Shown: one piece after another, positions 797 to 52,985 of the stretch | Position numbering within the stretch: the stretch's first letter is position 1 | Layout of the letters: each line of letters opens with the position of its first letter | NCBI GenBank assembly: GCA_933228675.1 | Contig: OW121744.1 | Location: forward strand, 118,071,600-118,135,599 | Direction of reading: 5' to 3' | Length of the DNA: 64,000 bases | Source of the DNA: Stomorhina lunata | Taxonomy: Eukaryota > Arthropoda > Insecta > Diptera > Rhiniidae | Notes under the pieces: generated by a model | The model's database searches: none | The model's input: the letters and a program-made list of their open reading frames with translations, nothing else | What the model was told of the DNA's origin: nothing | Made by a program: the position numbers and the translations under genes

Positions 797-2190
797 TCTA
801 TAAAAAAAGTTTTGGATAACAAGTTTTTCTATAGGAAAAGTTATGGATAACAAGTTTTTCTATTGAAAAAGTTGTGGATAACAAGTTTTTCTATAAAAAA
901 AGTTGTGGATAACAAGATTTTCTATAGAAAAAGGTGTGGATAACAAGATTTTCTATAGAAAAAGTTGTGGATAACAAGTTTTTCTATAGAAAAAGTTGCA
1001 GATAACAAGTTTTTCCATAGAAAAAGTTGTAGATAACGAGTTTTTCTATAGAAAAGTTGTGAATAATAAGTTTTTCTATAGAAAAAGTTGTGGATAACAA
1101 GTTTTTCTATAGAAAAAGTTGTAGATAACAAGTTTTTCTATAGAAAAAGTTGTAGATAACAACTTTTTCTATAGAAAAAGTTGTAGATAACAAGTTTTTC
1201 TATAGAAAAAGTTGTGGATAATAATTTTTTCTATAGAAAAAGTTGTGGATAACAAGTTTTTCTATAGAAAAAGTTCTGCATAACAAGTTTTTCTATAGGA
1301 AAAGTTCTGGATAACAAGTTTTTCTATTGAAAAAGTTGTGGATAACAAGTTTTTCTATAGAAAAAGTTGTGGATAACAAGTTTTTCTATAAAAAAAAGTT
1401 GTGAATAACAAGTTTTTCTATAGAAAAAGTTGTGTATAACAAGATTTTCTATAGAAAAAGTTGTGGATAACAAGATTTTCTATAGAAAAAGTTGTAGATA
1501 ACAAGTTTTTCTATAGAAAAAGTTGTGGATAACAAGTTTTTCTATAAAAAAAGTTGTGGATAACAAGTTTTTCTATAGAAAAAGTTGTGGATAACAAGTT
1601 TTTCTATAGAAAAAGTTGTGGATAACAAGTTTTTCTATAGAAAAAGTTGTGGTTAACAAGTTTTTCTATAGAAAAAGTTGTGGATAACAAGTTTTTCTAT
1701 AGAAAAAGTTGTGGTTAACAAGTTTTTCTATAGAAAAAGTTGTGGATAACAAGTTTTTCTATAGAAAAAGTTGTGGATAACAAGTTTTTCTATAGAAAAA
1801 GTTGTGGATAACAAGTTTTTCTGTAGAAAAAGTTGTGGATAACAAGTTTTTCTATAGAAAAAGTTGTAGATAACAAGTTTTTCTATAGAAAAAGTTGTGG
1901 ATAACAAGTTTTTCTATAGAAAAAGTTGTGGATAACAAGTTTTTCTATAGAAAAAGTTGTGGATAACAAGTTTTTCTATAGAAAAAGTTGTGGATAACAA
2001 GTTTTTCTATAGAAAAAGTTGTGGATAACAAGTTTTTCTATAGAAAAAGTTGTGGATAACAAGTTTTTCTATAGAAAAAGTTGTGGATAACAAGTTTTTC
2101 TATAGAAAAAGTTGTGGATAACAAGTTTTTCTATAGAAAAAGTTGTGGATAACAAGTTTTTCTATAAAAAAAAGTTGTGGATAACAAGTT
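797..2190. repeat. Satellite array A, 31-bp unit, about 45 copies
   Basis: Head-to-tail tandem array. The unit is a variable half GTTGTGGATAACAAG followed by the shared half TTTTTCTATAGAAAAA. Copies at the left edge (797-1450) are more divergent (AGATAAC, CTGCATAAC, CTATAAAA variants). Copies at 1550-2160 are nearly identical, the pattern expected when unequal exchange homogenises the middle of an array. Length divided by period gives about 45 copies. There are no spacers, so it is not a CRISPR. The shared half links it to arrays B to G in this window. Frames reading through it encode only repeat peptides. Confidence 0.97.
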
Positions 2191-4040
2191 GTTTACCCTT
2201 TATATGCTTAATGTAATGATAAAAAAATTCCTCTTTAAACATTACCCTGTTATTGTAATCCCTTGGCATGAATATGTATGTAGTAGTACGTACATTAACA
2301 TCCAAATTTAGAATGAATATGTTTATTCAAAAACTCTTCAATATTTGTTGAAGTTGAAATGATTAAAATTTGAAAAACGAAAATTATGATTTTGTTTCCT
2401 ATTTTGTTGCTTGTGTGTGCTCCTGCCGCTGATGTTCATGTTGTTGTTGTTGGTTGAGTAATTAAAATTTGTGCGAGCATTTGAAATATAAACACTGAAG
2501 TATTTTTTCAGTGAATACGAATAATTTCAATATCATTAAGAGTCAGTCCCATCTAGACAACAATGGAAAAATCCGAAGGAGCAGCAGCTGCAAAAAAGTC
2601 TGTCATTGTGACAAAAGAAGTTGTTGACTTGATGGATTAAAAAAAGGATATTTTTTTGTACATTTAAAGAGGTAAAACTTCTTACATCTTTTATTAAATT
2701 TTAGAAAGAAGGAAACACAAAGAAAGGAAAGGATTACTTACAAAAATAAAGAATTTAATGTAAACCAAATTTGCAATATAAACTGTTATATTATTATTAG
2801 CAATAATTGATTTTGTACTAATGGTTTTGTTGATTAATCTAAGCCTTCCTGCCAGTCACAATTATCATTAAGAATAAATCGTTAAAAGTAAAACCATAAT
2901 TGCATGATACCACTCTATCATGTTATTTTACCGCTACATACTGAATACACAAGGTATATGAATTGGATAAATGATTTCATAAAAGTTTTCAATGTGTTTT
3001 TTTAATTGTTATTAAGATATGTAAAAAAATCAACAGTGTGTTTATAAGATATCTATTCAATTTTATGAAAAAACAAGGTTTGTTTTCTTTTAAAGACAAA
3101 ATTTCATGACTTTTAAAATTTCATATTTTGAAAAATTCCAAAAATAATTTGTAGCAAGTGAAATAAATTAAAATTATTTCGATTTATTTGCACACTGTAA
3201 TAATATAGATACATTTTGTAGTAGTAACTTGAAACGCCAAAAAGTATGCACATAAAAAAGAACTTTACCAAATACTATCATCATGATGAGCAGCGTCATT
3301 GTTTGCACATGAAACATCAAAGGATTTTTATATTTGCTCTACTTACAACTATAAAAACACAAACACGTACGCATACACCTACAGAAATGTGCAAAAATAA
3401 ACTACTTATACACCCTCTAGCTCCTGGACATAACCATTTTGTATCCTATTTTTATCCCCCAATAATACATGGTCCACACAATTCTGACTTAAACAGAATT
3501 ACAATTTTATTTTAATTTGCATTTAAATGAGCTTAATAGTAAATATGTATAAAAAACCGAGTGCTCTCACAAAAGCGATACTATCGGAAAGATATTGTTC
3601 TATAAAGGATAAATTGGCAAAGGAAAAAATAAAAAAAAAATTGTTACATTCGTGAAAAACACAGAATTCTGCAAAAAGGTAAAAAAATTGTTAAAAAGTT
3701 GCTGAAAAAAGAAGCTTGTTAAATGATGTTCAGTTGTAATGTTGGTTTGTCTATAGACCAATTGTGTGGTTAGGTAGTCGAAGCATCACCATGCAGCTAT
3801 GGTCAATTTCATGCACACACACTTACATAGATACTCTTGAGCTCACTCAGTCACTTATAGAATAAATGATTCCATATGAGTTCGTTTAAATAATACCACA
3901 TTATGTGGGTTGCAAAGAGAAAATTGCAATATTTCTTACTTAAAGGCCAATATTGTTATGCTACATTTATTGTGAATATAAAGGATAATGATTCTTCTGT
4001 AAAAATTGGTAAAAAAGAACTGAACCCCAACACGTAGAAA
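2191..4040. other. Intergenic DNA between satellites A and B
   Basis: AT-rich spacer with no confident gene. It contains one short open frame in good context (2563-2640, listed separately) and a longer frame at 3246-3515 that lacks any domain. The right end (from about 4040) shades into degenerate copies of array B. Confidence 0.45.
2563..2640 (+). CDS. Possible 25-codon small ORF or lone first exon
   Basis: An ATG in good insect context (ACAACA before ATGG) opens 25 codons ending at TAA. The peptide begins MEKSEGAAAAKK and ends EVVDLMD. Its composition (Ala, Lys, Glu, Val, Asp) differs from the Ile/Phe/Asn/Lys/Tyr-rich junk frames around it. A TCAGTC initiator-like sequence lies about 20 bases upstream, but there is no clear TATA box. 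It could be a small peptide, an upstream ORF, a 5' exon of an unseen gene, or chance. I do not recognise it. Confidence 0.15.
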   Translation: MEKSEGAAAAKKSVIVTKEVVDLMD

Positions 4041-7000
4041 GTTCTCTTTTAGCTAAAGAGCAAATTTTGAATAACAAATCTTATATAAAAAAATATATAT
4101 TTTTAAGAAAATTGTGGAACATAAATTTCTTACAAAAAAAAAAGTTGTTTAAGTGAGGTTTTCATACATATGATTTTCTCTAGAAAATCTTATGAAACAT
4201 AAGATTTTCTATAGAAAAAGTCGAGGGACATAAGTTTTTTTTATAAAAAGTTGTGGGACATAAGTTTTTCTTTAGAAAAAGTTATGCAACATAAGTTTTT
4301 CTATAGATAAAGTTGTGCAACATAAGTTTTTCTATAGAAAAAGTTGTGCAACATAAGTTTTTCTACAGAAAAAGTTGTGCAACATAAGTTTTTCTATAAA
4401 ACAGGTAGTGCAACATAAGTTTTTCTACACAAAAAGTTGTGCAACATATGTTTTTCTATAGAAAAAAATGTGCAACATAAGTTTTTCTATAGAAAAAGTT
4501 GTGCAACATAAGTTTTTCTATAGAAAAAGTTGTGCAACATAAGTTTTTCTATAGAAAAAGTTGTGCAACATAAGTTTTTCTATAGAAAAAGTTGTGCAAC
4601 ATAAGTTTTTCTATAGAAAAAGTTGTGCAACATAAGTTTTTCTATAGAAAAAGTTGTGCAACATAAGTTTTTCTATAGAAAAAGTTGTGCAACATAAGTT
4701 TTTTTTATAAAAAAGGTAGTGCAACATAAGTTTTTCTACACAAAAAGTTGTGCAACATATGTTTTTCTATAGAAAAAAATGTGCAACATAAGTTTTTCTA
4801 TAGAAAAAGTTGTGCAACATAAGTTTTTCTATAGAAAAAGTTGTGCAACATAAGTTTTTCTATAGAAAAAGTTGTGCAACATAAGTTTTTTTATAAAACA
4901 GGTAGTGCAACATAAGTTTTTCTACACAAAAAGTTGTGCAACATATGTTTTTCTATAGAAAAAGTTGTGCAACATAAGTTTTTCTATAGAAAAAGTTGTG
5001 CAACATAAGTTTTTCTATAGAAAAAGTTGTGCAACATAAGTTTTTCTATAGAAAAAGTTGTGCAACATAAGTTTTTCTATAGAAAAAGTTGTGCAACATA
5101 AGTTTTTCTATAGAAAAAGTTGTGCAACATAAGTTTTTCTATAGAAAAAGTTGTGCAACATAAGTTTTTCTATAGAAAAAGTTGTGCAACATAAGTTTTT
5201 CTATAGAAAAAGTTGTGCAACATAAGTTTTTCTATAGAAAAAGTTGTGCAACATAAGTTTTTTTATAAAAAAGGTAGTGCAACATAAGTTTTTCTACACA
5301 AAAAGTTGTGCAACATATGTTTTTCTATAGAAAAAAATGTGCAACATAAGTTTTTCTATAGAAAAAGTTGTGCAACATAAGTTTTTCTATAGAAAAAGTT
5401 GTGCAACATAAGTTTTTCTATAGAAAAAGTTGTGCAACATAAGTTTTTCTATAGAAAAAGTTGTTCAACATAAGTTTTTCTATAGAAAAAGTTGTGCAAC
5501 ATAAGTTTTTCTATAGAAAAAGTTGTGCAACATAAGTTTTTCTATAGAAAAAGTTGTGCAACATAAGTTTTTCTATTGAAAAAGTTGTGCAACATATGTT
5601 TTTCTATAGAAAAAGTTGTGCAACATAAGTTTTTCTATAGAAAAAGTTGTGCAACATAAGTTTTTCTATAGAAAAAGTTGTGCAACATAAGCTTTTCTAT
5701 AGAAAAAGTTGTGCAACATAAGTTTTTCTATAGAAAAAGTTGTGCAACATAAGTTTTTCTATAGAAAAAGTTGTGCAACATAAGTTTTTCTATAGAAAAA
5801 GTTGTGCAACATAAGTTTTTCTATAGAAAAAGTTGTGCAACATAAGTTTTTCTATAGAAAAAGTTGTGCAACATAAGTTTTTCTATAGAAAAAGTTGTGC
5901 AACATAAGTTTTTCTATTGAAAAAGTTGTTCAACATAAGTTTTTCTATAGAAAAAGTTGTGCAACATAAGTTTTTCTATAGAAAAAGTTGTGCAACATAA
6001 GTTTTTCTATAGAAAAAGTTGTGCAACATAAGTTTTTCTATTGAAAAAGTTGTGCAACATATGTTTTTCTATAGAAAAAGTTGTGCAACATAAGTTTTTC
6101 TATAGAAAAAGTTGTGCAACATAAGTTTTTCTATAGAAAAAGTTGTGCAACATAAGCTTTTCTATAGAAAAAGTTGTGCAACATAAGTTTTTCTATAGAA
6201 AAAGTTGTGCAACATAAGTTTTTCTATAGAAAAAGTTGTGCAACATAAGTTTTTCTATAGAAAAAGTTGTGCAACATAAGTTTTTCTATAGAAAAAGTTG
6301 TGCAACATAAGTTTTTCTATAGAAAAAGTTGTGCAACATAAGTTTTTCTATAGAAAAAGTTGTGCAACATAAGTTTTTCTATAGAAAAAGTTGTGCAACA
6401 TAAGTTTTTCTATAGAAAAAGTTGTGCAACATAAGTTTTTCTATAGAAAAAGTTGTGCAACATAAGTTTTTCTATAGAAAAAGTTGTGCAACATAAGTTT
6501 TTCTATAGAAAAAGTTGTGCAACATAAGTTTTTTTATAAAAAAGGTAGTGCAACATAAGTTTTTCTACACAAAAAGTTGTGCAACATATGTTTTTCTATA
6601 GAAAAAGTTGTGCAACATAAGTTTTTCTATAGAAAAAGTTGTGCAACATAAGTTTTTCTATAGAAAAAGTTGTGCAACATAAGTTTTTCTATAGAAAAAG
6701 TTGTGCAACATAAGTTTTTCTATAGAAAAAGTTGTGCAACATAAGCTTTTCTATAGAAAAAGTTGTGCAACATAAGCTTTTCTATAGAAAAAGTTGTGCA
6801 ACATAAGTTTTTCTATTGAAAAAGTTGTGCAACATAAGTTTTTCTATAGAAAAAGTTGTGCAACATAAGTTTTTCTATAGAAAAAGTTGTGCAACATAAG
6901 TTTTTCTATAGAAAAAGTTGTGCAACATAAGCTTTTCTATAGAAAAAGTTGTGCAACATAAGCTTTTCTATAGAAAAAGTTGCGCAACAAAGCTTTTCTA

Positions 7001-7140
7001 TAGAAAAAGTTATGCAACATTAGTTTTTATATAGAAAAAAGTTTTAAAATTAAGATTTTTTAGAAAACGTTGTGGAACCTTAATTTTTCGTAGAAAAATT
7101 TGTAGATCTAATTTTTTCTTAAAAAAGTTTTGGAACGTAA
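4041..7140. repeat. Satellite array B, 31-bp unit, about 95 copies
   Basis: This is the largest array in the window. The unit is GTTGTGCAACATAAG plus the shared half TTTTTCTATAGAAAAA. Both edges (4041-4200 and 7010-7140) are degenerate and the centre is nearly uniform. A variant block carrying GGTAGTGCAAC, CTACACAAAAAG and ACATATG recurs near 4400, 4700, 4900, 5260 and 6530. A second block marked by CTATTGAAAAAG, ACATATG and AAGCTTTT occurs near 5575 and 6040, 465 bp (15 units) apart. These recurrences show multi-unit amplification on top of the monomer period. Confidence 0.97.
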
Positions 7141-7855
7141 GTATAGAACAGTAGTCCGATCTGCAAGTGAATGTATTTTTCTGGCTATTTTTTGCAAATT
7201 AATTGCTTCATCTTTTTTGTATGTATTTTTTTTTGAGGAAAAATCGTAGAATTTTTTGTTTTTGTTTAAACTTTGGGCTCATTTTAATTTCATTTTGGTT
7301 TTCCCATTTTTTATATAAAACTCATCAACAGATGCTTAACCATCAAAGGCCTTTTAAGTGGTTTTTCAATGAATTCCTAGGCTGACAGTAATATATATAG
7401 TCGAAATGTAGCATATGTGTATGTTTAAATTTCCATTTGTGTGTGTATGAGAGAGCGCAAAATTACAAAAGTGTCTTTATTAAACGGCAGTATTAATATC
7501 CTGTAAGTGCATTGGATTAAATTTTTAATAATATTCACTGTTACATTTAAATGCCTTTTGTATTGAATAAAAAGCAAGAAAGGGAGATTTTAAATAAACA
7601 AGGAAAATTTTCTTGTTTAAAGGCGATTCATTCATGTGTTAGTGAAAATGTGGTTAAAAACGGAAGTGAAATGTTCAGCGAATATTTACCAAACTATCCT
7701 TTGTGTAGTCGTACTTACGTATATATTAATGGGTTAATGTTTAAGTATTAAACTCAAAAATATGTTGTTAAAGGTAACATTTTTCTTAGTTGTAAATGTT
7801 AAGTTTTTTATAAAAAAAAATATAGAATAATTTCTTAGAATAAGTTGTAAATAAT
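7141..7855. other. Spacer between satellites B and C, no gene seen
   Basis: T-rich spacer. Open frames at 7203-7385 and 7551-7751 have no recognisable domains or coding-like composition. From about 7800 it grades into degenerate satellite C units. Confidence 0.4.
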
Positions 7856-8280
7856 GGGTATGTACTTACTAGAAAAAAGTGGATGATAAGTTTTTATATA
7901 GAAAAAGTTGTGAATAGTAAGTTTTTCTATAGAAAAAGTTTTAGATGATAAGTTTTTATAAAGAAAATGTTGTGGATGGTAAGCTTTTATATAGGGAAAG
8001 TTGTGGATAGTAAGTTTTTCTTAAGAAAAAGTTGTTGATGATAATTTTTTTATAGAAAAAGTTGTGGGTGATAAGTTTGTCTATAGAAAATGTTGTGGAT
8101 TGTATGTTCTTACATAGAAAAAGTTGTGCATAGTAAGTTTTTCTTAATAAAAAGTTGTCGATGATAAATTTGTCTATAGAAAAAGTAGTGGATGATAAGT
8201 TTTTTTTATATAAAACGTTGTGGAGAGTAAGTTTTTCTTAATAAAAAGTTGTGGATGATAAATTTTTCTATAGAACAAGT
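7856..8280. repeat. Satellite array C, left part
   Basis: Divergent tandem units of about 31 bp with variable half GTTGTGGATGATAAG (also AGTAAG and GGTAAG forms) and the shared half TTTTTCTATAGAAAAA, often as TTTTTATATAGAAAAA. It stops abruptly at about 8280 where an unrelated dispersed element begins, and the same unit type resumes at 11723. The two parts are therefore one array split by an insertion. Confidence 0.9.
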
Positions 8281-9632
8281 AAGAGTGGTATATTCGGCTT
8301 TGCCGAATCTTGGATACCCTTCACCAATGGTGTTCCAAAAGTACTTAATGTAATTCGTAGCAATATTTGGTTATACTAGTATTATATGCAAAGAGTCTTT
8401 AAAATTAAGAGTCGGAAAACGAAAACCTTTTCGGTGGCGTCATCATCTAGAATAGTTATGCACCCAAAGGTTAGGTTGGGCAGGTGGCTGATGTCTAGGG
8501 AAGCTTCACTTGGGTTCTAAAGTGGTCCCTTTGTGAAAGATAATGATTACTAGACTACAAGATTTGATGAAGTTTAAGTATTCTGGCATGCATTCTTGAT
8601 TAGTTATGTAAAACTCTGAAGTTAGCGGACTGATTTAGGTCAAAGCTTTAACAATGATTGTCAATGTATACAAGCCTTAAAATTATAGGGTATACACTCT
8701 TAGTTTTAGATACATACGTGAAATATACAGCTTTTGAATGGATGGTTATCAGCTTTGTCGGAAAAGTTTACTTATTAATTTGAAGTTAGTTAATTAATTA
8801 AAATGAACACTTCATCAATAATATTTGGGATGTATAGTTCTTTCGATCTGTCCGATGGATGTTTGGAAAGTTTTGCTCTAGTTCTTTGTGCAATTTTAAT
8901 GTAATTTAATTTATCAGCATTAAATCGATTCCCGGTCGGGTTTATATGGGAGATTTCACTAAATGTGAATAGAGCTCGCCCATTTTCAATATCGAACTTT
9001 TCAAAAAATCAGAAATACTTTTGTAAAATGTTGTCCCTCTAGAAAGTTTATTTTGGGCGCTATTGTCCTGAATATCAATATTGTACAACGTCTTTATACT
9101 AAATGTCATCATCGTATCTATTATAATTTGTCATTTATTAGCTACTAAGAGATTGCCTTAGGCGAAGTTTTACGGGATCAATTGTCAAACGTGAACGGAT
9201 TTCTCCCAATTGCAATTAAAAAATTTAAATTTTTGTTGATATGTGAGATACATACATATGTAGGTTTTGAACGGATATCATGTAATTAGCTGCATTTTTG
9301 TACTTCCTAAGAAGATTACCTATAATTTGATATATAATACATTCTCAAATGTTATCATAATGTTCAAAAGTCAGACACAAAATTAAGATAAATGCAGTGT
9401 GTCTGTCTGCTAAAACCAGATTTGTGGAGCTCCTGAATTGTCCCACCCTGAATTTCAACATTGTCGATCAAAACATTATCGCTTAAACGCTAAATTATAT
9501 CTACCACAAATTACAGAATGCATCAGGATTTAGATAATCCCCTGCGAAGGACGCTATTAAACTTCATCAAAATAAACATCTGAGATATGGACAAAACAGG
9601 AGCTCCAAAAACTTGACTACAACAGAAAAAAG

Positions 9633-10670
9633 GACAGACAGGTAGACGGACGGACATATAGACGGACGGACAAACAAACAGACGGACGGACGGGCATACA
9701 AACAGACGGACGGAGGTCGCGAAATCGATTCTTGTGCCGATTCTGTGTTGATCGGTACAATTTGAATGGTATTCATAATCAGATTTGTGGAGTATATATA
9801 TCAGATTTTAGAAAATCCTCCCATAAAGAACGATGTCAAATTTCATCACAATCGGTCCATAAACACCTGAGATATCGCTGAAACAATACTTACAAAATGT
9901 AAACAAAATTTCTTAGACACGTACTTTGGGCAATTTGCTGTACATCAAATGTAGTGTTATGGCGATATCTCAATTGTATATAGACCGCTTTTGATAAAAT
10001 TTAATAACGTGCTTGGTGGGGGAATTTCCTAAAATCTGATATAAAATTTATGTAGGTCCGTACTAAAGGAGGATAGTTTTTCCTATTTCTGCATTTAATT
10101 TTTTCAACAAACATTCTCTAATGTGTTCTTTGGGCAATTTGCGATACATCAAATTCAGTGTTTTGGCGATATCTCAGTTGTTTATGGACCGATTTTAATG
10201 AAATTTTAGAGTGCTTTGGGAAAATATTTCCTACAATCTGATATATAACATGTTATCACATGTACACCAGGAGTATCTTTTTTCTCTTGTTATTTAAAAG
10301 TGTGTTTCAATCAAAAATTTTCAAATTTTCGTCTAATTTTTGGTATTTTTTCGATATTTTCGGTGTTTATAAACCGATTTTAATGAAATTTAATAGCGTT
10401 CATTGCGGGAGAATTTCCTAAAATCTGATATATAATTTATGTAAGTCCATCCTCCAGGGGCTTCAGGAACTTGATTTCAACAGACAGACAGACAGACAGA
10501 CAGACAGACGGACAGACAGACAGACAGACGGACATCGCTTAATCGATTCTCCTCCCGATTCTGAGTCGATCGGTATAATTTTTATGGGGTCTACGATCAC
10601 TAATAAAAAAATTACAAACGGAATCACAAACTTATAATACCCTTTCACCTATTGGTGAAGGTATAAAAAG
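9633..10670. repeat. Copy 1 of a 1.04-kb tandem duplication
   Basis: It starts at GACAGACAGGTAGACGG and ends with the ATACCC hairpin and ATAAAAAG. It aligns with 10671-11722 at an offset of about 1038-1052. By eye the differences are few: single-base changes such as GTATATAG versus GTTTATAG, plus length changes in the GACA tracts. Minus-strand frames over the GACA tracts read as runs of Ser-Val-Cys-Leu and are not genes. Confidence 0.92.
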
Positions 10671-11550
10671 GACAGACAGGTAGACGGACGGACATATAGA
10701 CGGACGGACAAACAAACAGACGGACGGACGGGCAAACAAATAGACGGACGGACAGACGGACGGAGGTCGCGAAATCGATTCTTGTGCCGATTCTGAGTTG
10801 ATCGGTACAATTTGAATGGTATTCATAATCAGATTTGTGGAGTATATATATCAGATTTTAGAAAATCCTCCCATAAAGAACGATGTCAAATTTCATCACA
10901 ATCGGTCCATAAACACCTGAGATATCGCTGAAACAATACTTACAAAATGTAAACAAAATTTCTTAGACACGTACTTTGGGCAATTTGCTGTACATCAAAT
11001 GTAGTGTTATGGCGATATCTCAATTGTTTATAGACCGCTTTTGATAAAATTTAATAACGTGCTTGGTGGGGGAATTTCCTAAAATCTGATATAAAATTTA
11101 TGTAGGTCCGTACTAAAGGAGGATAGTTTTTCCTATTTCTGCATTTAATTTTTTCAACAAACATTCTCTAATGTGTTCTTTGGGCAATTTGCGATACATC
11201 AAATTCAGTGTTTTGGCGATATCTCAGTTGTTTATGGACCGATTTTGATGAAATTTTACAGAGTGCTTTGGGAAAATATTTCCTACAATCTGATATATAA
11301 TATATTATTACATGTACACCACGAGTATCTTTTTTCTCTTGTTATTTAAAAGTGTGTTTCAATCAAAAATTTTCAAATTTTCGTCTAATTTTTGGTATTT
11401 TTTCGATATTTTCGGTGGTTATAAACCGATTTTAATGAAATTTAATAGCGTTCATTGCGGGAGAATTTCCTAAAATCTGATATATAATTTATGTAAGTCC
11501 ATCCTCCAGGGGCTTCAGAAACTTGATTTCAACAGACAGACAGACAGACG

Positions 11551-11582
<32 letters not shown>

Positions 11583-11722
11583 GACATCGCTTAATCGATT
11601 CTCCTCCCGATTCTGAGTCGATCGGTATAATTTTTATGGGGTCTACGATCACTAATAAAAAAATTACAAACGGAATCACAAACTTATAATACCCTTTCAC
11701 CTATTGGTGAAGGGTATAAAAA
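10671..11722. repeat. Copy 2 of the 1.04-kb tandem duplication
   Basis: Same content and order as copy 1, very little diverged. Its terminal hairpin (11689-11717) keeps the perfect GGTGAAGGGTAT arm, whereas copy 1 has lost one G (10637-10664). Array C resumes immediately after it. Confidence 0.92.
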
Positions 11723-12210
11723 GTTGTGGATGATGAGTTTTTCATTAGAAAAAGTTGTGGGTGGTAAGTTTTTCTATAGAAAATGTTGCGGATGGTAAGT
11801 TTTTATATAGAAAAAGTTGTTGATGGTAAGTTCTTCTATATAAATAGTTGTGGATGGTAAGTTGTGGATGTTAAGTTTTTCTATAGAAAAAAATGTGGAT
11901 GTTAAGTTTTTCTATAGAAAAAGTTGTGGATGATAAGTTTATCAATAGAAAAAGTTGTAGATAGTAAGTTTTTCTATGGAAAAGTTGTGGATGGTAAGTT
12001 TTTGTATAAAAAAGTTGTGTATGATAAGTTTTTTTATATGAAAGGTTGTGGATAGTAAGTTTTTTATATTAAAAAGTTATGGATGGCAAGTTTTTCTATA
12101 GAAAAAGTTGTTGATAGTAAGTTTTTACATAAAAAGTTGTGTATGATAAGTTTTTCTTTAGAAAAAGGTGTAGATGGTTTTTTTTTTTATAGAAAAGGTG
12201 TGAATAGTAA
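11723..12210. repeat. Satellite array C, right part
   Basis: Continuation of the divergent 31-bp satellite with GTTGTGGATGATAAG-type halves and CTATAGAAAAA halves. Units vary in length (for example TATAAAAAAGTTGTG), and the array fades out near 12210. Confidence 0.9.
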
Positions 12211-13420
12211 GTATCACTTTACAATTTCTTAAAGTCACATTTTTATTCTTGATACTTGCACTTTTCCTAGATAATTTTTGTCTGCAATTGTCTTTTGTGT
12301 AACTCGTCCTTTTGTGTGGTCCTTTTCTTATTTAAGCCATTCGACAGTTAAAAAAACTATATGAAGGTTTGTTTGAGCATGTCTTCATTTTTATGTTAAT
12401 TAAATAATGATAATGAAGTGGTTTTTATTGTAAATACTTTCTGCTATATGATGTTAATTATTATAATGATGATGATGATGGTGGTGGTAGTGATCCGACT
12501 ATAGACAATTGACCATTTCGTTGTTAAGTTTCTTTTGTTGTAGATTTTCATATACATTTTCCTTTTCGTTGTATGTTTCATTAAACAATATGTACTTTTA
12601 TTATATGAATTCTTTTTGGAGTAATAATCCATAAGGATTGATTAAGAATAAATGGAAATTATTTGGAAATGTTTTTCAGTTTTTAATGGTTATTTAAATA
12701 AAAGTAATTAAGATCAACCAAAGAATATTAAAGGAAACATTTTAATATTAATGTGAAGCGTAGGTATTATGGAATACTTAAAAATAATAAAAAAGGGTTA
12801 TTTTAATCTATGGAAATCTTACCTCTTAATGAAAAGAATATGTCTTTGGTGTAGTAAATTAATAAAACGTAGTCTTAGGTCAATTATTTGTATCTTTTCC
12901 ATCTTTTGTTTAGAAAATGTATCTTGATATTCCTATCAGGTATTCAGTGGTAGAAACATTAACGTGTATGGGAATATGTATGCATATGTATATAAAATAC
13001 ATTTATAAATTCGAAACAATTATTCTATTACTCCATTCATTCTCATATGAATTTTGCTACAAGTGTTTAATTTCACACACTCAAAAGTTGGAGTTTTACC
13101 ATTTCCATCAGCTGCATATGGTAGAATTTTCTACATTTATAAACCACTTAATTACTGGTATGACAAAGTTTAGCATTTGGTCAAAAATGAAAAAAAAAAT
13201 CCGAAACAATTTTCCAAATACTTCAGTTGAGTTTTAACAAGTGTCAGATAGAGTTGAAGTTTTAGAAAAATAGTAAAAAAACTAAGAATATTTATAAAAC
13301 AAAAATTTGAATTGTGCTCAAATTTGTGTTACTATAAAATTAAAACTTTTTGATAAGCAAATTATATAAAATATATAAATTGAGCTTATAACTAATTTCT
13401 CTAAAAACGTTGTTATTAAA
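12211..13420. other. Upstream region of the ppk gene, no other gene
   Basis: AT-rich DNA with a short ATG/GTG microsatellite near 12465-12490. Open frames at 12444-12632 (minus) and 12917-13237 (plus) show no domain. The promoter of the downstream channel gene presumably lies here, but I cannot point to a convincing TATA/initiator pair. Confidence 0.4.
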
Positions 13421-16400
13421 ATGAACAATAAACGCAATAATAACATAAAATGTTATGATGAAATGCATGAAAATTATGGGGAAGAATCTTCTACTCAAAC
13501 CTTAATGACTAAAGCAAAGCATCAGAATCAACCTCCCTATCATCATTATATACCAGACCGAGTGTCTAAGGTAAAATCTGGAAAAATGTTAAATTCTTTA
13601 CAAAAACCTGTAACTCAAGTAAAACCATATGAAAAATCAATACAAATGCAGACGAACAATAAACAATTGCAGAAACCATTTAATAACCAGGGACTGATAA
13701 ACGCTGGCATTCCCCTGACGAGAAACATCTACAACAATAACATTGACAACAATTTGAGACGCATACGTAAGCCCTCGGTATGGTTTGGAAAAGAAAGGCA
13801 TCAAACCATAAGAAATAAATCTAGAAATAATGAAGACGACGACTTGAATACGAGTAACTTGATGCTGAATGCAGAAAATACTCAAAATACTGGGGATTTA
13901 ACGCCACACAGAGTTTTCTCTAAAGGAAGATTAGTGTCGAAAGTCAAAGGGTTCATTATCGAATTTCTGCAGGATTCGTCTATACATGGTTTTGTGTATT
14001 TGGCTAAAATTGGCTTAAGTTTGATAGAAAGGTAAAAATTAGAAATCATAAAACAAAACAAAAAAAAAAAACTTTGTTAATACTTCATACGAATGAGTTA
14101 TATATTCTAAACAAATTTAATAAATATCAATCATACGTAACTGCTGCAAAGTATGCAGTAGAAAATTGACATTTAAAATCCTTTAAAACGGTTTAGTATT
14201 TATGTAATTTTAATTTTGATTTTTCTGTGAAATATTTCAAATCGTAATTAAATTTTAAAAACATTTAAGCAGCTTAAAGACGTTTGATTAATAATTTAAC
14301 CATTCATAAAACTCATACGTTATTGTTTGATTTGAGTTTTCCCTCAAATCTTTTTAAATTCAACTTAAACATATGCACGTGAAAAAAAGTTTAAATCATT
14401 TATAAACTTTTATTTCCATGTAAAAGGATATAATAAAACCCGAAGCAAGCTGATTTATTGCCATGGATTTTTCGAGATTAAACTGAAAGCACATAAAAAT
14501 TTTTAATTAAATAAATAAGACAAAAATATTTGTAATAATTGGAAAAATAAATACGTACAATACTACATATATAAATATTAAATCCCTTAACATTGCAATA
14601 AATTTAGCTATAATCCATAGTTTTGTTTTAAATGTAAATAAATATTTTTATTTAAAAAATAATAAAATTTGAAACGAAATACTTCATGCATTTCCAAGTA
14701 AAATATAAAACAAAAAAGTTATAAAATAAATAAATCCATCAAATATTTTCTCTATAATATTAACTTTATCATAAAATCATCTACTATTAATTTTAGCTAT
14801 AAAAATTTATTCTTAAACATTTATGTTTTTTCATATTTCTACTCCCATTTCATTGAAACATTTTTAGGACATTGTGGTTTGCATTTATTTGTGTGGCCAT
14901 ATTTAGTATTATTTCACTTAGTCATCGCACCTGGCAACGTTTTCAAACCTCACCCATGGTCATATCAATGGATCGTAATAAATTGGTTTGGAATACCAGC
15001 TTTCCATCATTGACTGTGTGTCCTCATAAACGCATCGATGAGCTTAAAGTTGAGGAATACATTATGTAAGTATTTTCTACACTTTACATCTGTATCAATA
15101 GACTTCACACATATACACAAACACACACTCACACATATATATGAATATTCCTGCTCCTGTTGCTAACCACAACACAACATGAACAGATTCATTCGTAGTG
15201 GATTAAAATTTATTGGTTCTTTTGGCTGAACAATTTGGGGGTACGAAAAAAATTAAACCACGATTGAATGGAAAAGAAAAATTGGGATTTGCTTCTGAAA
15301 AAATAAAATGAAAACGGAATAGTAAAAATGGAAATTAAACCGAAAATTCAAAATAATTATCGCTATCAAATGGGAAAAGACAAATGAGTTGTTGAAATTG
15401 AAAGAATAAGTTTAAAATTTGAAAAGTTTGTCTATTTTGCCAAATAACAGTTGAATTATAGAGGAAGACAAAATGTGTTCCCTTAAAAATACTATCGACA
15501 ATTTTATTTTGAAATTGAAAAGTTACTTTAATTTTCCACAAAAATTTATTGATTATATCGCTTTTTGAAAGGAAAGTTATCGATAACTAGAAAAGTTATC
15601 GATAACTTTACTTTTCTATAGAAAAGTTATCGATAACTTTGCTTTTCTATAGAAAAGTTATCGATAACTTTGCTTTTCTATAGAAAATTTATCGATAACT
15701 TTGCCTTTCTATAGAAAAGTTATCGATAACTTTGTTTTTCTATAGAAAAGTTATCGATAACTTTGCTTTTCTATAGGAAAATTATCGAAAACTTTGCTTT
15801 TCTATAGAAAAGTTATCGATAACTTTGCTTTGCTATAGGCAAGTTATCGATAACTTTGCTTTTCTATAGAAAAGTTATCGATAACTTTGCTTTTTTATAG
15901 AAAAGTTAACGATAACTTTTCTTTTCTATAGAAAAGTTATCGATAACTTTTCTTTTCTATAGAAAAGTTATCGATAACTTTATTTTTCTATAGAAAAGTT
16001 ATCGATAACTTTATTTTTCTATAGAAAAGTTATCGATAACTTTACTTTTCTATAGAAAAGTTATCGATAACTTTACTTTTCTATAGAAAAGTTATCGATA
16101 ACTTTACTTTTCTATAGAAAAGTTATCGATAACTTTACTTTTCTATAGAAAAGTTATCGATAACTTTACTTTTCTATAGAAAAGTTATCAATAACTTTGC
16201 TTTTCTATAGAAAAGTTATCGATAACTTTGCTTTTCTATAGAAAAATTATCGATAACTTTGCTTTTCTATAGAAAAGTTATCGATAACTTTGCTTTTCTA
16301 TAGAAAAAGTTATCGATAACTTTGCTTTTCTATAGAAAAGTTATCGATAACTTTGCTTTTCTATAGAAAAGTTATCGATAACTTTGCTTTTGTATAGAAA

Positions 16401-18029: not shown

Positions 18030-18106
18030 ATTATAATAATATTTTATTTATATCACAAATTAATATCAATTAAATATAAAACGCTTTAAAGCTTACTGAT
18101 GCATAA

Positions 18107-23179: not shown

Positions 23180-23917
23180 TAGATTTTCCATAGTTATGAT
23201 ATTACTGCTTTTCCATAGAAAAGTTATCGATAACTTTGCTTTTCTATAGAAAAGTTATCGATAACTTTGCTTTTTTATAGAAAAGTTATCGATAACTTAA
23301 CTTTTCTATAGAAAAGTTATCGATAACTTAACTTTTCTATAGAAAAGTTATCGATAACTTTACTTTTTTATAGAAAAGTTATCGATTACTTTACTTTTCT
23401 ATAGAAATGTTATCGATAACTTTACTTTTCTATACAAAAGTTATCGATAACTTTACTTTTCTATAGAAAAGTTATCGATAACTTTACTTTTCTATACAAA
23501 AGTTATCGATAACTTTACTTTTCTATAGAAAAGTTATCGATAACTTTACTTTTCTATAGAAAAGTTATCGATAACTTTACTTTTCTATACAAAAGTTATC
23601 GATAACTTTACTTTTCTATAGAAAACATATCGATAACTTTACTTTTCTATAAAAAAGTTATCGATAACTTTACTTTTCTATAAAAAAGTTATCGATAACT
23701 TTACTTTTCTATAGAAAAGTTATCAATAACTTTGCTTTTCTATAGAAAAGTTATCGATTACTTTATTTTCTATAGAAAAGTTATCGATAACTTTGCTTTT
23801 CTATAGGAAAATTATCGAAAACTTTGCTTTTCTATAGAAAAGTTATCGATAACTTTGCTTTGCTATAGGCAAGTTATCGATAACTTTGCTTTTCTATAGA
23901 AAAGTTAATGATAATTT
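23180..23917. repeat. Satellite array E, same unit as array D
   Basis: About 23 tandem 31-bp units with GTTATCGATAAC plus TTTTCTATAGAAAA, containing about 18 intact TATCGATA octamers by my count. The block 23771-23907 is identical to 15741-15877 of array D, including several private variants (CTATAGGAAAATTATCGAAA and GCTATAGGCAAG). The two arrays are therefore copies of one another rather than independent expansions. Confidence 0.97.
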
Positions 23918-40762: not shown

Positions 40763-40803
<41 letters not shown>

Positions 40804-41515
40804 GAAGCTTTTGTAAAAGTATAACAAATACTTGTGTCATTTTTTAAATTTCGATGATGAATATAAATTAAGTGGAAAAATACAACCTAAATATAAAATG
40901 TAACTAATACCAAAAAAGAATTGAAAAATGTTTAGAGTAATAATAACAATTCAAAAAATTTAGCACTTAAATGTTAATTATTTAGAAAGCCCTGAGAGTC
41001 TCAGAGGAAAAGAGCTAACCATTATTTCACTAACCACAAACAAACCTATTCAATTTTCTTATGATAAATACAGAAAATGAAAATCATTATTTAAACAGCA
41101 AAAAAGTAATTTTTCTAAAAAAAAAAATATGAACTAAATACTTATAAATATTTGTTGTAGCTATTAAGGCAATTGTTTGGTTTTGTTGTTAATGAAAATC
41201 TTTTGATAAGTTTTAGTACAAAAAAAAAAAAAAAAGAAAACAATTTATATTTCAGCAACAAACAATACCAATATTTATATAAAAACTGAATAATGTATGT
41301 CTGGAAAAAATCTCGGACTTTAGGAAAAACGAATTCATAAACAAAACTCAAACACATTCAAACAAACATATACACATAATATTTTCTGATACATAAATAT
41401 AAAAATATATCAAAGTACAAAAAAGTGATTAAGTCATTTGTTGTTAAAGCAACAAACTACCCAAAAAACATTTTTGTTCGACAATAATGGGAAAAAATTT
41501 TCTCAAACAAAATAG
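39971..41515. other. AT-rich intergenic DNA with a short (TA)n
   Basis: It contains a (TA)n tract of 38 bp at 40764-40801, bordered on both sides by AAGCTT. No gene is seen; the frame at 41142-41357 (minus) runs through a poly(A) tract. Confidence 0.45.
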
Positions 41516-43095
41516 AAAAATTATGTGGAAAAACTTTTGATAACAAAATTTCCGTGTAAAAATTTTCTAAAAAATTGTCTTTGCAAAAATTTTTGATAAA
41601 AAAATTTTCTATAGAAAAATTTTTAATAATAGAATATTTAATGGAAAAATTTTCTACAGAAACATTTTTTATTGAAAGATTTTTGATAAAAAAAATTTTC
41701 TATGGAAAAATTTTCTATAGAAAAACTTTTGATAAAAAAAATTTCTTTGAAAAATTTTTGATAAAAAAATTTTATTTAGAAAAATTTTTGATAAAGAAAA
41801 TTTTCTATAGAATATTTATTTTCTATATAATTTTTTTTTATTTAAATGTTTTCTATATACAATTTTTTTTATCAAAATTTTTTTTATATACAATTTTTTT
41901 ATCAAAAATGTTTCTATAGAAAATATTTTTTATCAAAAATGTTTCTATAGAAATTTTTTTTATTAAAAATATTTCTATAGAAAATTTTTTTTCTATAGAA
42001 AAATTTTTGATAAAAAAATTGTATATAGAAAAAATGTTGATAAAAAAATTTTCTATAGAAAATAAAAACATTTTGTATAGAAACATTTTTGATAAAAAAA
42101 CTTTCTATAGAAAAATTTTTGATAAAAAAATTGTATAAAGAAAAAATTTTTTATAGAAAAATTTTTCTATTAAAAATTTTTTTAGAAAATGTTTTTCTTC
42201 AAAAAGAAGTGTATTTGCATTTGATCCCAAACCTGTTACATTTATTTATTAATGTAACAGATCAATTTATTGATAAAAAGCCAAAAAATGTTTGCGGAGA
42301 AACCAAATTCCTCGACGCGTTTCGACGCAAACATTTTTTGGCTTTTTATCAATAAATTGATCTGTTACATTAATAAATAAATGTAACAGGTTTATGATCA
42401 AATACAAATACACTTCTTTTTGAATAATATTTACATCCCGACTAATTTGTTATTTTTTGATAAAATGTTTTTCTATAAAAAATATTTTTATCAACAATTT
42501 TTTAGAAAAATTTTTTTTATCAAAAATTTTTCTATAGAATATAAAAAAATTTTCTATAGAAACATTTTTGATAAAAAAATTTCTATAGAAGCATTTTTGA
42601 TTAAAAAATTTTCTATAGAAAAACTTTCGATAAAACAATTTTCTATAGAATATTTTTTTTCTATAGAAATTTTTTTTTATCAAAATCATGTTGATATACA
42701 TTTTATTTTATCAGAAATTTTTCTATAGGAATTTTTTTTTATCAAAAATGTTTCCATAGTAATTTTTTTTTTATTTTCTATAGAAAAATGTTTGATAAAA
42801 AATTCTCTATACAAAAATTTTTGTTTAGAAAATTTTCTAAAAAGTTTTGATAAAAATATTGTCTATAGAAACATTTTTCATAAAAATATTTTCTATAGAA
42901 AAATTTTGTTATAAAAAAATTTTCAATGTATAGAAAATTTTTTTATAAAAAATTTTTCTATAGAAAATTTTTCTATAGAAAATCTTTCTTATTTTTTATA
43001 AAATTTTCTATAGAAAATTTATTTTTTTTATAAAATTTTCTATAAAAAAGTTTGCTGTACAAAATTTTTTTATAAAAAAATTTTCTATAGAAAAT
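41516..43095. repeat. Satellite array F, degenerate, orientation-switching
   Basis: Imperfect units of about 30 bp combining TTTTTGATAAAAAAA with TTTTCTATAGAAAA. Orientation switches repeatedly: TTTTTGATAAAA at 41540-41815, TTTTATCAAAAA at 41860-41970, forward again at 42000-42170, inverted at 42480-42535, forward at 42550-42650, inverted at 42670-42765, then forward. A long foldback (42198-42424) interrupts it. Long frames on both strands (41575-41919, 42420-42728, 42450-42701) are repeat artefacts rich in Phe, Ile, Lys and Tyr. Confidence 0.9.
42198..42424. repeat. Foldback: 99-bp inverted arms, 29-bp spacer
   Basis: The left arm 42198-42296 and right arm 42326-42424 are inverted copies with only about two or three mismatches. 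Each arm contains a smaller palindrome CTGTTACATT / AATGTAACAG. The 29-bp spacer includes CGACGCG, which is unusually GC-rich here. No target duplication or transposase is evident. It may be a foldback transposon or a palindrome made during array rearrangement, and would form a strong hairpin or cruciform. Confidence 0.93.
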
Positions 43096-46777: not shown

Positions 46778-48213
46778 TTATAGACTAGACATCATAGAAT
46801 TACATTATAAACTAGACTGAATTGAATAGACGTCATAGACTAGAGATTTTGTACTAGACAACATATACTAGACATTATATAATATATATCATAGACTAGA
46901 CATTTTAAACAAGACATTATAGACTAGACATAATAGACTAGACTTATCGAGTTGACATCATAGACTGGACATTATCGAATAGACATCAAAGGATACACAT
47001 CATAGGTTAGACATAATAGAGTAAACATCATTGACTTGACATCATAGACTAGACATCAGAGACTAGACATCTTACAATAGCAATCATAGAGTTGACATCA
47101 TAGACTAAACATCAAAGAATTAACATTATAGACTGTACGTCTAAGACGGAATATTATAGACTTGATATCATAGACTTGACATCATTGACTAGACATCATA
47201 GACTCGACATAATAAAATTACCATCATAGACTAGACATAGTAGAATAGCAATCATAGAGTAGACATCATAGACAAGACATCATAGAATTAACATTGTAGA
47301 CTATATGTCTTAGACGAGACATCATAGACTAGACATCATAGAATTAACATCATAGACTAGACATCATAGGCTAGAGATTATAGACTAGACATCATAGACC
47401 AGACATCATAGACTAGACATCATTGAATTAACATCATAAACTAGAGATTTAAGACTTTATTGAATAGACATCATAGAGTAAACATCATAGACTAGCCATT
47501 ATAGACTAGATATTATAGACTAGGCATTATAGACTAAACATTATAGACTAGACGTTGTATAATAGCAATCATAGACTAGATATCATAGAATTGACATTAT
47601 AGACTAGACGTCTTAGATGAGACATTATAGACTAGACATCATAGGCTAGACATCATAGACTGGACATCATTGACTAGACATCATATACTAGACATCGAAG
47701 AATAGCAATCATAGAGTACATATCATGGACTAGACAGCGTTTAATGGAAATCATAGAGTAGACATTATCGAAGAGATCGTAGACTAGATATGATTAACTA
47801 GACACCAAAAACTAAAGATCATAGACTAGACATGATAAACTGGAGATCACAGTCTTGATATTATAGACTAGACTTCATAGAACAAATATCATAATCTAGA
47901 CATCATAGACTGGGCATCGTAGAATTTACATCAAAGACTAGACATAATAAAATAACAATCGTAGAGTAGACATCATATACTAGATATGATTCACAAGATA
48001 TAATAGACTAGAGATCATAGACTAGACATCGTAGAATAGCAATCATAGAGTAGACATCAATACTAGATATCATAGACAAGACATTATGATAAGCATCATA
48101 GAATAGACAAAATTAACATCATAAACTAGACATCATAAAATAGCCATCATCAAGTCTTGTGTACATCATACAGATCATAGAGTAGACATCTTAGACTAGA
48201 CTTCATATACTTG
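46778..48213. repeat. 14-bp minisatellite, GACATCATAGACTA
   Basis: About 1.4 kb of imperfect tandem copies of GACATCATAGACTA, on the order of 100 units, with variants such as GACATTATAGACTA, AACATCATAGAATT and GCAATCATAGAGTA. Variants are interspersed rather than homogenised, unlike arrays A and B, so the array looks old or is built of short sub-blocks. No open frame runs through it. Confidence 0.93.
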
Positions 48214-49559
48214 ACCTATATTAGTATTTGTAAATTTGCAAGTTTTTTACAATCTTTAGTCTTCACAACATTAACACCTAATATTGAACACATACATACA
48301 TATACATTTATTATTGTATATGTGTCTTTAGTATATTTTTAAATTTACACCTTTTAATATAATTGAAAAAATTTATTAAATGCCATGAATTTTTCGCACA
48401 CCAACAAATATGTTTATTAATTTTCTCTTTAATGTCTTTTTTTTTTGTTAAACAAAACTGTTCGTCTTTATTTCCCGGATGTGTAATTCCTTCCTGCTGC
48501 TTGTCATTGTCTTGTATTCACTGCTGTTGTTTACTGCAGCTGTTGTAAGTTGACATGTTGGGTATTTAAACGTTTGTTTTTCTTTTCGTTTTTTCTCTGA
48601 AAATTTTATTAATATATGCAAAAATGTTTATATATGTTTATAAGTGTGTGTGTGAAGAAAGACATAAGTAAGTATGTATGGGTGCTTATTGTACATACAC
48701 ATGTTTTCTTTAGTATTATGTATGTATTTGTATTTTATATTTATTTATGTAAAAAATACTTTTATTTTTATGAATTTAAAACTGACAGCCCGCCTTTTGC
48801 CAGAGATACTTTCATAGGAAAATATTTTGTATTTGTTGTTGTTATAATTGTCGTTGTTGTTGTTACTTATACTGTAGTTTGTTTTGCAACAAACACACAA
48901 ATACAAATTTATGTGCATAAATAATGAATGACATTGAAAGTCTATTGTTGTTGTAGTTGTTGTTTAAACGTTTGTATATCTTTACATACGAAAACATTTG
49001 TATGTATTTATGAAAGGATTTGTGATTGATGTACATTATACATATGAGTATGATTGTATGTGGTTTTGGCACCATCATCAACTTTATGATGATGTGATAT
49101 TGTTGTGACGTTGTATGTAATAATATTAAGTGAAGTGATTTAAAATATATTTATATTTTCGTTATATACTTTTTATTTTTTTTAATTGAAGTTATTACAG
49201 CACAAAAAGCGAGAAAACGCACACATACAACAACTGAAGTGTGGAAATAAATCATAAATAAATGTGGTGCAACATTTTGCCAAAGTAATGTTCTTGAGCT
49301 GAAGGACGGGAAAAGGATTCAAGCAAGAATTTAATTTTTAATGTAAATAATTTTTTTTGGTAAAAAGAAATGTGAATTATTTTCTTCGCTTTGATTGAAA
49401 TTGTAGGGGGTGAATATATTTATAGGGTTTTAAGGCAGTGCAAACACTTTCGTTATTATTGAAAGAAGAAAATGTAAACGATATTTAAGAATATATTATG
49501 TAAATTCACTTTATTGAATGAAGGCAAAACTGTGGTATCAAATATATTTATATACATAC
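48214..49559. other. AT-rich intergenic DNA, no gene seen
   Basis: (GTT)n and TATGTATG-like microsatellite patches occur at 48640-48740, 48833-48865 and 48945-48963. Frames at 48363-48548, 48616-48924 and 48863-49081 have no domain. Confidence 0.4.
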
Positions 49560-49787
49560 AGGTATGTGATGGACATTTCTCGTTTTCAAATCGATCGATT
49601 TCAGAAATAGTTTTTAGCTACTTTTAGGTTATTTCCTTCCAAAAAATGAAAATTTTGGCTTTAATCCTTTTGACTGATATTTTATCTTTCATTTGGTTTA
49701 AATTTTTTGGGAAAATAACAGAAAATTATCTCAAAAATATATCTGAAATCGATCGATTTGAAAACGATCGTTTTCCATCACATACCT
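49560..49787. mobile_element. 228-bp inverted-repeat element (MITE)
   Basis: The left end AGGTATGTGATGGA and right end TCCATCACATACCT begin inverted repeats of about 54 bp that also share GTTTTCAAATCGATCGATTT. The centre is AT-rich and non-coding. I cannot find a target duplication, so the class is open. Confidence 0.75.
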
Positions 49788-51583: not shown

Positions 51584-51693
51584 CCTAAGGTATGTTACAC
51601 AATATTTGCTTAAGAGTTTGAGTTTTCGATCGAATTCTATGATATGAACCCATTACATATCAAGATACATTAATCGTCTTGCATACTTTTAGG
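51584..51693. mobile_element. 110-bp mini-element with CCTAARRGTATG ends
   Basis: It starts CCTAAGGTATGTTACAC and ends GCATACTTTTAGG, an imperfect inverted pair. The inner phrase following the left end matches, in reverse complement, AAACTCTTAAGCAAATATT near 58090-58110, next to ACATACTTTAGG. It is therefore one copy of a small dispersed family. No target duplication is seen. Confidence 0.5.
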
Positions 51694-51701
51694 AGCTCTG
51701 A

Positions 51702-52005
51702 TTAACTTTAAACACCAAAAGCCGAAGACTTTTAGTAATTTTCGTAAATATCACGATCATTAATGAAACTCTATAGAAAACCTTTTGCTAAAAAAATGTT
51801 CCTTAGAAAATTTTTTGATAAAAAAATTTGTTATAGAGAATTTTTTGAAAAAAAATTAACTTTAGCCACCAAAAGCCGAAGACTTTTAGTCATTTTCGTA
51901 AATATCACGATCATTAATGAAACTCTGTTGAAAACCATTTGCTAAAAAAAATGTTTCTTAGAAAATTTTTTGATAAAAAAATTTGTTATTTCTATAGAAA
52001 AATTT
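51702..52005. repeat. 154-bp tandem duplication at the edge of array G
   Basis: 51702-51855 and 51856-52005 are near-identical. Both contain AAAAGCCGAAGACTTTTAGT, CGTAAATATCACGATCATTA and then the first units of array G. The duplication thus joined single-copy DNA and satellite DNA in one block. Confidence 0.85.
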
Positions 52006-52985
52006 TGGATAACAAAAATTTCTTTAGAAAAATTTTGGACTGAAAAATTTTCTATAGAAAAATTTATCTTAAAAAAAATTTTATGGAAAAGTTTTTGATA
52101 TAAAAATTTTCTATGGAAAAGTTTTTGATATAAAAATTTTCTATGGAAAAATTTTTGATGAAAAAAATTTCTTAAGAAAAATTTTGCATTAAAAATTTTT
52201 CTATAGAAAAATTTTTGTAAAAAAAATTTTTTATGGAAAAGTTTTTAATATAAAAATTTTCTATAGAAAAATTTTAAATATAAAATTCTTTATAGAAAAA
52301 TTTTAAATATAAAATTTTCGATAGAAAAATTTTTGATAAAAAAAATTTTATAGATATATTTTTTTATAGAAAAATTTTTGGAAAAAAATGTTGTATAGAA
52401 TAATTTTTGATATAAAATAAATTTTCTATAGAAAAATTTTTGAAAAAAAAAATTTCTATAAAAAAATTTTTGAAAAAAAAAATTTTCTATAGAAAAATTT
52501 TTGCTGAAAAATTTTCGATAGATAATTTTTTCATAAAAAAAATTCTATAGAAAATTTTTATAAAAAATTGTTTGCAGAAATATTTTTTATAAACAAAATT
52601 TCTATAGAAACATTTTTGATAAAAAAAAATTTTGTAGAAAAATTGTTGATAAATAAATCTTAATAGAAAAATGTTTGACAAAAAAATGTTTGATAAAAAA
52701 AAATTTTATAGAAAAATTTTTAATTAAAAAGTTTGCTATAGAAAATTTTTTGATAAAAAATTTTACTACAGAAAAATTGTTTTTAAAAAATTTTTTTATA
52801 GAAAAATTTTTGATAAAAACATTTTTTATAGAAAAAATTTTGATAAAAAAAATTTTTGATAAAAAATTTTTTTTAGAAAAATTTTGGATAAAAAATTCTT
52901 ATAGAAAAAGTTTTGATTAAAAAGTTTTCTATAGAATTTTTTTTTATACAGAAAAATTTTTGATAAAAAAATTTTCTATTGAAAT
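51765..52985. repeat. Satellite array G, degenerate AT-rich units
   Basis: Units of about 28-32 bp of the array F type: TTTTTGATAAAAAAA with TTTTCTATAGAAAA and many length variants. Mostly one orientation. Frames at 52487-52681 and 52675-52920 are artefacts of the repeat. Confidence 0.88.

Follow-up and report, generated by a model that had tools for sequence, protein, structure and literature searches.

The satellites of Meloidogyne, as described by Mestrovic et al. (2013, PMC3694981), combine a conserved box with a divergent remainder of the monomer; one type of monomer gives way to another inside the motif, and a role in array rearrangement was proposed. What turns certain short sequences into satellites is still an open question. 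We analyzed a stretch of 64,000 nucleotides of the fly Stomorhina lunata (assembly GCA_933228675.1, contig OW121744.1, C11:118071600-118135599; hereafter, the window) and the genome to which it belongs (728 Mb, 104 contigs). The window carries seven tandem arrays that have in common TTTTCTATAGAAAA, an A/T-flanked palindrome with the core CTATAG (the CTATAG half), accompanied by a second half (the partner half). We interpret the arrays as part of a dispersed superfamily of satellite DNA of common descent, in which the CTATAG palindrome serves as a shared box for amplification or recombination, and we give this interpretation as a whole a probability of about one half. The common descent of the arrays is well supported, and the role of the box is what we infer.

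The likeness to the Meloidogyne satellites lies in a short motif that is constant across otherwise divergent satellites, whereas one box there resembles the CENP-B box and the motif here is the A/T-flanked CTATAG palindrome (PMC3694981). The S. lunata unit is 28-31 bp long, and its exact copies approach a million. The monomers of Meloidogyne are reportedly longer than this unit. For the Helentron HINE satellite DNA of Crassostrea gigas, the monomers average 140-180 bp, the arrays in most cases comprise no more than 5 monomers, and the modules beside them are shared (PMC7492417). Many short scattered arrays with related and unrelated repeat modules are seen in both C. gigas (PMC7492417) and S. 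lunata, whereas here few flanks recur across loci and the median length of the 48 complete arrays is about 1.2 kb. The foldback element Tetris and the TIR-220 satellite of Drosophila virilis are comparable in that inverted structures, ends of the miniature inverted-repeat transposable element (MITE) type and satellite arrays are linked, but no shared terminal inverted repeats were detected around the arrays examined here, except for one local inverted duplication (PMC4079207). As with the short euchromatic arrays of Drosophila and Tribolium, the repeats lie amid gene-bearing regions, here apparently including an intron; the dispersed arrays of S. lunata, however, make up about 16% of a 140-kb random sample (PMC10048060). 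No paper naming the TTTTCTATAGAAAA repeat was found in the literature searched; the 14-mer itself appears in two papers, both seemingly unrelated. The earlier note on this stretch knew of no named satellite with a two-module layout; none was found in that literature either, although conserved-box satellites as such are described in Meloidogyne (PMC3694981). This family is the same in kind as the known dispersed and conserved-box satellites and differs from them in the dimer of short half-units built around one palindrome, in its abundance, and in the contrast between variation within and between arrays.

In the window, arrays were detected with Tandem Repeats Finder (TRF) with no motif supplied. 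TTTTCTATAGAAAA was common to all seven, with 161 exact copies in the window versus 0 in 100 dinucleotide shuffles, and 191 of the 199 CTATAG sequences in the window lie inside the intervals that had previously been delimited. The TRF rows and the shared TTTTCTATAGAAAA indicate that the seven arrays are real and related, as had been claimed, and the proposed unit of about 31 bp applies to arrays 1-5. Arrays 6 and 7, to which the same unit had been assigned, are degenerate and show identity peaks at lags of 15 and 30 that are about equal (0.65 and 0.65 in the left part of array 6, 0.59 and 0.54 in its right part, and 0.61 and 0.63 in array 7). The building block of the family is a half-unit of about 15 bp on an A/T scaffold, TTTT-core-AAAA, and most arrays seen have a dimeric unit that joins two of them (28-31 bp).

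Genome-wide, TTTTCTATAGAAAA was found in 928,301 exact copies, compared with 32 for the same letters reversed. In addition, 14 random stretches of 10 kb each (140 kb) were searched for arrays of at least 200 bp, which were filtered by period, A+T content and the presence of TATAG, CTATA or AAATTTT in the unit. Satellite-type arrays occupied 22.1 of the 140 kb (15.8%) and were found in 6 of the 14 stretches; 256 copies of TTTTCTATAGAAAA were distributed over 5 of the 14. When all 64 palindromic cores in the TTTT-core-AAAA frame were counted, the core next to CTATAG in abundance had 3 copies. Arrays were present on all five long contigs sampled. These core counts, together with the genome-wide comparison, support the claim that the arrays form one superfamily. 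Head-to-tail tandem arrays of a related unit thus occur at many separate loci, as in a dispersed satellite, and the array-specific consensus forms indicate local homogenization.

The CTATAG half carries by far the commonest palindromic core and stands beside many partners. CTATAG was present in the consensus of 8 of the 14 arrays detected without a motif in the random stretches, and the partners beside it in such arrays were of at least six types (CATATT, CGTG, TTATCA, GGCGATCACC, TCGATA and others). A short motif is therefore common to otherwise unrelated monomers, and the expectation that CTATAG halves join unrelated partner halves elsewhere was borne out. Periods of 28, 29, 30 and 31 all occur among the arrays; a strict helical phase, considered as an explanation of the period, was rejected on this ground.

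The forms of the partner half, among them AGTTATCGATAACT and GTTGTGCAACATAAG, were taken by the earlier note to be replaced or to evolve per locus, and several of them to be partly palindromic. For arrays 1-3, replacement does not hold, since GTTGTGGATAACAAG, GTTGTGGATGATAAG and GTTGTGCAACATAAG are a single half that differs by 0-3 substitutions from the family consensus. Exact GTTGTGGATAACAAG joined to the exact CTATAG half occurs at 19 places in the genome, every one in array 1, and the partner pattern with three free positions occurs at 94 places, which we grouped into 12 loci. The locus-specific substitutions form a ladder of GATAAC, GATGAC, GATGGT, GATGGC and GATGAT. The palindromic character of the partner half is clear in the GTTATCGATAAC class, for which the pattern with a free spacer has 2,907 exact places; this class keeps two palindromes and varies mostly in the spacer, its loci having been selected with both palindromes. 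In the GTTGTGG class, the second-dyad score was just 2-4 of 6; most A/T-rich arrays had a dyad pair that did not exceed that of letter shuffles. The upkeep of a palindrome in the partner half as a general rule was rejected on the scores of the GTTGTGG class.

Abrupt changes of partner were detected at 2 places among 1,788 partner segments, both across an intact CTATAG half and with whole partners on either side. At L035:3026, the partners switch from the CTAATCCTATCGTCAAC type to the unrelated AGTTGTGGATGGTAAG type across one intact TTTTCTATAGAAAA, and at L033:497 a smaller change occurs between related partners. Judged by eye, three further junctions (L035:2083, L042:950 and L014:2690) coincide with the CTATAG half or adjoin it; in the same displayed set, degenerate sequence was seen at L014:3200 and L033:700, and the stretch at L028 is where an array ends. 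In class G, the partner halves of different arrays are distinguished by substitutions, and an abrupt change of partner at the CTATAG half is seen in one place or more.

For the comparison of the two halves, the monomers of 24 class-G arrays were aligned, each to the consensus of its own array. The within-array variation per site was 0.094 for the partner half and 0.064 for the CTATAG half. For the columns of the CTATAG core, the values for C (0.144), the second T (0.122) and G (0.112) fell inside the range of the partner columns (0.043-0.199), and those of the other three were 0.046-0.069. Because three of the six core columns vary like the more variable partner columns, single copies of the palindrome are not protected within arrays. 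In contrast, all 39 fixed consensus differences between class-G arrays lay in the partner half, and none in the CTATAG half. The 11 arrays that were not found by a CTATAG-holding pattern gave fixed differences of 20:0 and within-array counts of 355:258 (Fisher, 2.8e-5), and the 13 arrays found by such a pattern gave 19:0. Arrays of the same locus are not independent, and the differences were therefore collapsed into 12 distinct changes; with weights taken from the within-array column rates, the probability that all of them fall in the partner half was P = 0.0028, and that all fall within some 9-column stretch 7e-5. For class T (13 arrays), the within-array values were 0.100 and 0.080, and the 10 fixed differences were all in the spacer, a class that says little here, as 10 of its 13 arrays were selected with both halves fixed.

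The equal divergence of both halves that would have refuted the earlier note is thus nearly seen inside arrays, and it is not seen between class-G arrays, where fixed changes are confined to the partner half. For the earlier proposal of selection or a mechanism acting on the CTATAG half, the outcome is mixed: the single copies speak against it, and the fixed changes of class G speak for it. In our reading, the bias acts when arrays are founded or swept and does not protect single copies. In the mechanism that we propose, unequal exchange or replication slippage would enlarge the arrays, and sub-families would recombine at their common sequence, the CTATAG palindrome. Monomers that have lost CTATAG would found fewer new arrays, and the palindrome would stay constant between arrays though mutating freely within them, the partner half being a passenger. 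The palindrome may act through bare homology, by forming a hairpin or by binding a protein. A stronger form, in which TTTTCTATAGAAAA is a cis-acting amplification box, with arrays starting, expanding and exchanging partners mainly through it, mutants seldom founding arrays and the partner merely carried along, is tentative and, on the whole, doubtful. If true, a selfish satellite system with a definable motor of about 15 bp and a replaceable cargo would be driving one of the commonest sequences of the genome. The contrast between variation within arrays (both halves) and between arrays (partner only, class G) offers a direct route to ask whether amplification, not host function, selects a motif, and some 0.93 million exact copies in many separate arrays would give such a test unusual power.

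Several points weigh against a box function. The consensus lacks CTATAG in 6 of the 14 random arrays and in 6 of the 15 neighbour rows, and the cores found instead include TTATAG, CTATATAG, CTAAAG, TTAAAG and CTTTAG, among others; the palindrome is therefore favoured in arrays but not required. The constraint comparison took in arrays of the class-G register only. L009-L015 and L033-L043 were found with patterns containing the CTATAG half, the class-G neighbours that were not so ascertained adjoin pattern-found arrays, and the pieces of the window were the choice of the earlier note. For the window arrays alone, the 6 changes gave weak values (P = 0.05 for the partner half and 0.013 for some 9-column stretch). 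The asymmetry is also partly an effect of labelling, in that a half still reading CTATAG gets called the conserved one. The detector of partner changes requires the motif on both sides and sees only changes between CTATAG halves, and partner exchange at this half is expected wherever it is the sole shared sequence.

The strongest alternative is plain common descent with local homogenization, according to which the CTATAG half is the ancestral half-unit, unchanged in younger sub-families, and has no box function. The 15-bp periodicity of arrays 6 and 7 and of the L048 array fits an ancestral monomer of about 15 bp, several random arrays have diverged cores of the kinds listed above, and the two halves vary almost alike inside arrays. 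On the other hand, both halves mutate and yet the fixed differences of class G are confined to the partner half, and CTATAG is kept beside many unrelated partners. We regard this alternative as a real possibility, if a somewhat improbable one.

A second alternative is dispersal by a mobile element (Helentron/HINE, foldback or MITE) in which the arrays would be the central or terminal repeats; their presence on all five long contigs sampled favours it. For this comparison, 96 complete 300-bp flanks of 58 arrays were used, the L048 array at 7761 lying partly outside, with its right flank cut. Resemblance to another flank was seen for 17 of the 96: for 10 the counterpart belonged to the same locus alone, and for 7 to another locus; 6 of these 7 lie in two recurrent dispersed elements, and the remaining pair is a 137-bp similarity between L045 and L048. 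No common carrier was found among these flanks, and the arrangement of Helentron/HINE repeats between specific shared flanking modules was not seen in them. At L009, L010 and L051, arrays of one sub-family are inverted relative to each other, at distances from a few hundred bp to about 2.3 kb, an arrangement that favours a mobile element and prompted a foldback-transposon model; this model was set aside, since the one spacer searched genome-wide, the 2.25 kb of the L009 pair, matches only itself at length and few flanks are shared.

Also in favour of a mobile element, the L048 array (7761-9830) runs in plus and then in minus orientation at the centre of a local 232-bp inverted duplication (7539-7770 and an inverted copy past the locus end; 99% identical), the inner part of which, at the array end, is a dispersed MITE-like arm of about 38 bp. 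A palindromic MITE-like element of apparently related kind lies within array 6 and abuts the L046 array. The arm, seen at L048 and L031, carries TTTTTTGATAAAA, resembling the partner half of arrays 6 and 7, and by this resemblance some half-units may originate from the MITE-like element. MITE-like copies with no nearby arrays also exist (L031). For the outer 190 bp or so of the L048 arms, however, the 40 candidates that were scored out of 136 contained no other match. Together with the few shared flanks and the L009 spacer, this makes dispersal by a mobile element unlikely.

Hairpin-primed copying had also been put forward by the earlier note. Single strands of two units folded better than shuffles in 6 of 8 tested cases (z -4.9 to -9.5) and weakly in the other 2 (-2.0 and -2.4), and in the three class-G folds the stem was formed by successive CTATAG halves and the loop by part of the partner half. 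The structure at L048 is suggestive, as fold-back copying from within an array would yield it. Orientation switches are few elsewhere (0-6 per test, and 8 in array 6), and compensating changes across the CTATAG palindrome showed no clear excess (16 versus 11.8 expected in 254 double mutants), so that hairpin-primed copying is no more than suggested. For these two reasons, we prefer ordinary unequal exchange or slippage with recombination at the shared half and consider fold-back occasional. Quasi-palindrome correction by template switching, which predicts the compensating excess, found no support.

A third alternative, that the palindrome is kept as a putative binding site of a chromosomal protein homodimer for a host function and not as an aid to amplification, draws on the fixed palindrome of 14-16 bp, its spacing of about 31 bp and its great abundance in the genome. 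TATCGATA may resemble the Drosophila DREF site, and TTC-N4-GAA a STAT-type site; a literature search on Stat92E and satellites turned up nothing relevant. Single copies are unprotected, the CTATAG columns vary within arrays and many arrays lack CTATAG, which renders a kept protein site improbable, a little more so than a mobile carrier. Finally, convergence of simple A/T tracts without descent, which the earlier note named as what would undo its claim, can appeal to the A/T-rich scaffold, in which many small palindromes are expected, but it is refuted at the level of the core and has practically no chance, because a single core among 64 predominates so strongly in the random stretches that the shared half is not an A/T-tract accident, as the reversed control also indicates.

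The arrays of the window lie on the plus strand, except for array 6, to which no strand is assigned; their edges are degenerate, and the TRF edges are slightly shifted from those given before. Array 1 (796-2190 also in TRF) consists of 45 copies of 31 bp with the partner GTTGTGGATAACAAG, and array 2 (4041-7142; TRF, 4166-7142) of about 96 copies of 31 bp with the partner GTTGTGCAACATAAG, its left edge at 4041-4165 being degenerate. For array 3, the left piece (7856-8280; TRF, 7879-8280) has 13 copies with the partner GTTGTGGATGATAAG, and the right piece (11714-12212; TRF, 11718-12212) has the partner GTTGTGGATGGTAAG; its first 4.7 copies (11718-11863) have the consensus CAATAG instead of CTATAG. 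The insert that splits them (8281-11713, plus strand, about 3.4 kb) contains an internal tandem duplication of about 1.05 kb (98.8%) and ACAG-type microsatellites, and the neighbourhood of the L048 array and other loci have further copies of its last 57 bp or so.

Array 4 (15574-16540; TRF, 15588-16444, with degenerate rows on to 16528) has a 31-bp unit of GTTATCGATAACTTTGC and TTTTCTATAGAAAA. The open reading frame beside it (16562-17116) matches PF00858, and from our reading of the flanking exons the array apparently sits in an intron of an amiloride-sensitive sodium-channel-like gene. The satellite family is relevant to assembly, masking and gene annotation in this insect. Array 5 (23180-23918; TRF, 23208-23918) comprises 23 copies of 31 bp, GTTATCGATAACTTTAC with TTTTCTATAGAAAA. 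In array 6 (41516-43095; several TRF rows, 41512-43094) and array 7 (51765-52985; two rows, 51771-52975), degenerate units of about 15/30 bp pair the CTATAG half with a TTTTTGATAAAA half. The 8 strand switches of array 6 were counted among 24 oriented halves, and the MITE-like palindromic dispersed element that splits it (42190-42440, no strand assigned) gave 80 matching pieces among the 40 candidates scored of 471. The left boundary of array 7 is duplicated together with its flank (51704-51770 and 51858-51924).

Beyond these arrays, an imperfect palindromic element of about 230 bp is present at 49559-49787 and at L015 548-777, 43 bp from the L015 array; the two copies are 91% identical. The 23-bp unit at L042 427-954 is joined directly to a 31-bp class-G array and corresponds to the unit of that array with 8 bp of the partner half missing. 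A separate array of about 104 copies with the 14-bp consensus ATAGACTAGACATC and no CTATAG scaffold occupies 46780-48215. In L058-L065, from Lachnospiraceae/Clostridiales metagenome-assembled genomes, 2-3 copies of a palindrome around TTTTTCTATAGAAAAA occur at 32-33-bp spacing, with spacers that differ (partly alike in L060, L064 and L065), with one place in the single genome that was checked; this bacterial palindrome has the same core as the insect satellite and is presumably unrelated to it. On the minus strand at 32222-34072, a 616-amino-acid open frame contains a Hermes-type DNA-binding domain (PF10683) and a hAT dimerization domain (PF05699), and the relatives of this hAT transposase include a Bactrocera tryoni protein (57% identical) and a Musca domestica transposase (52%).

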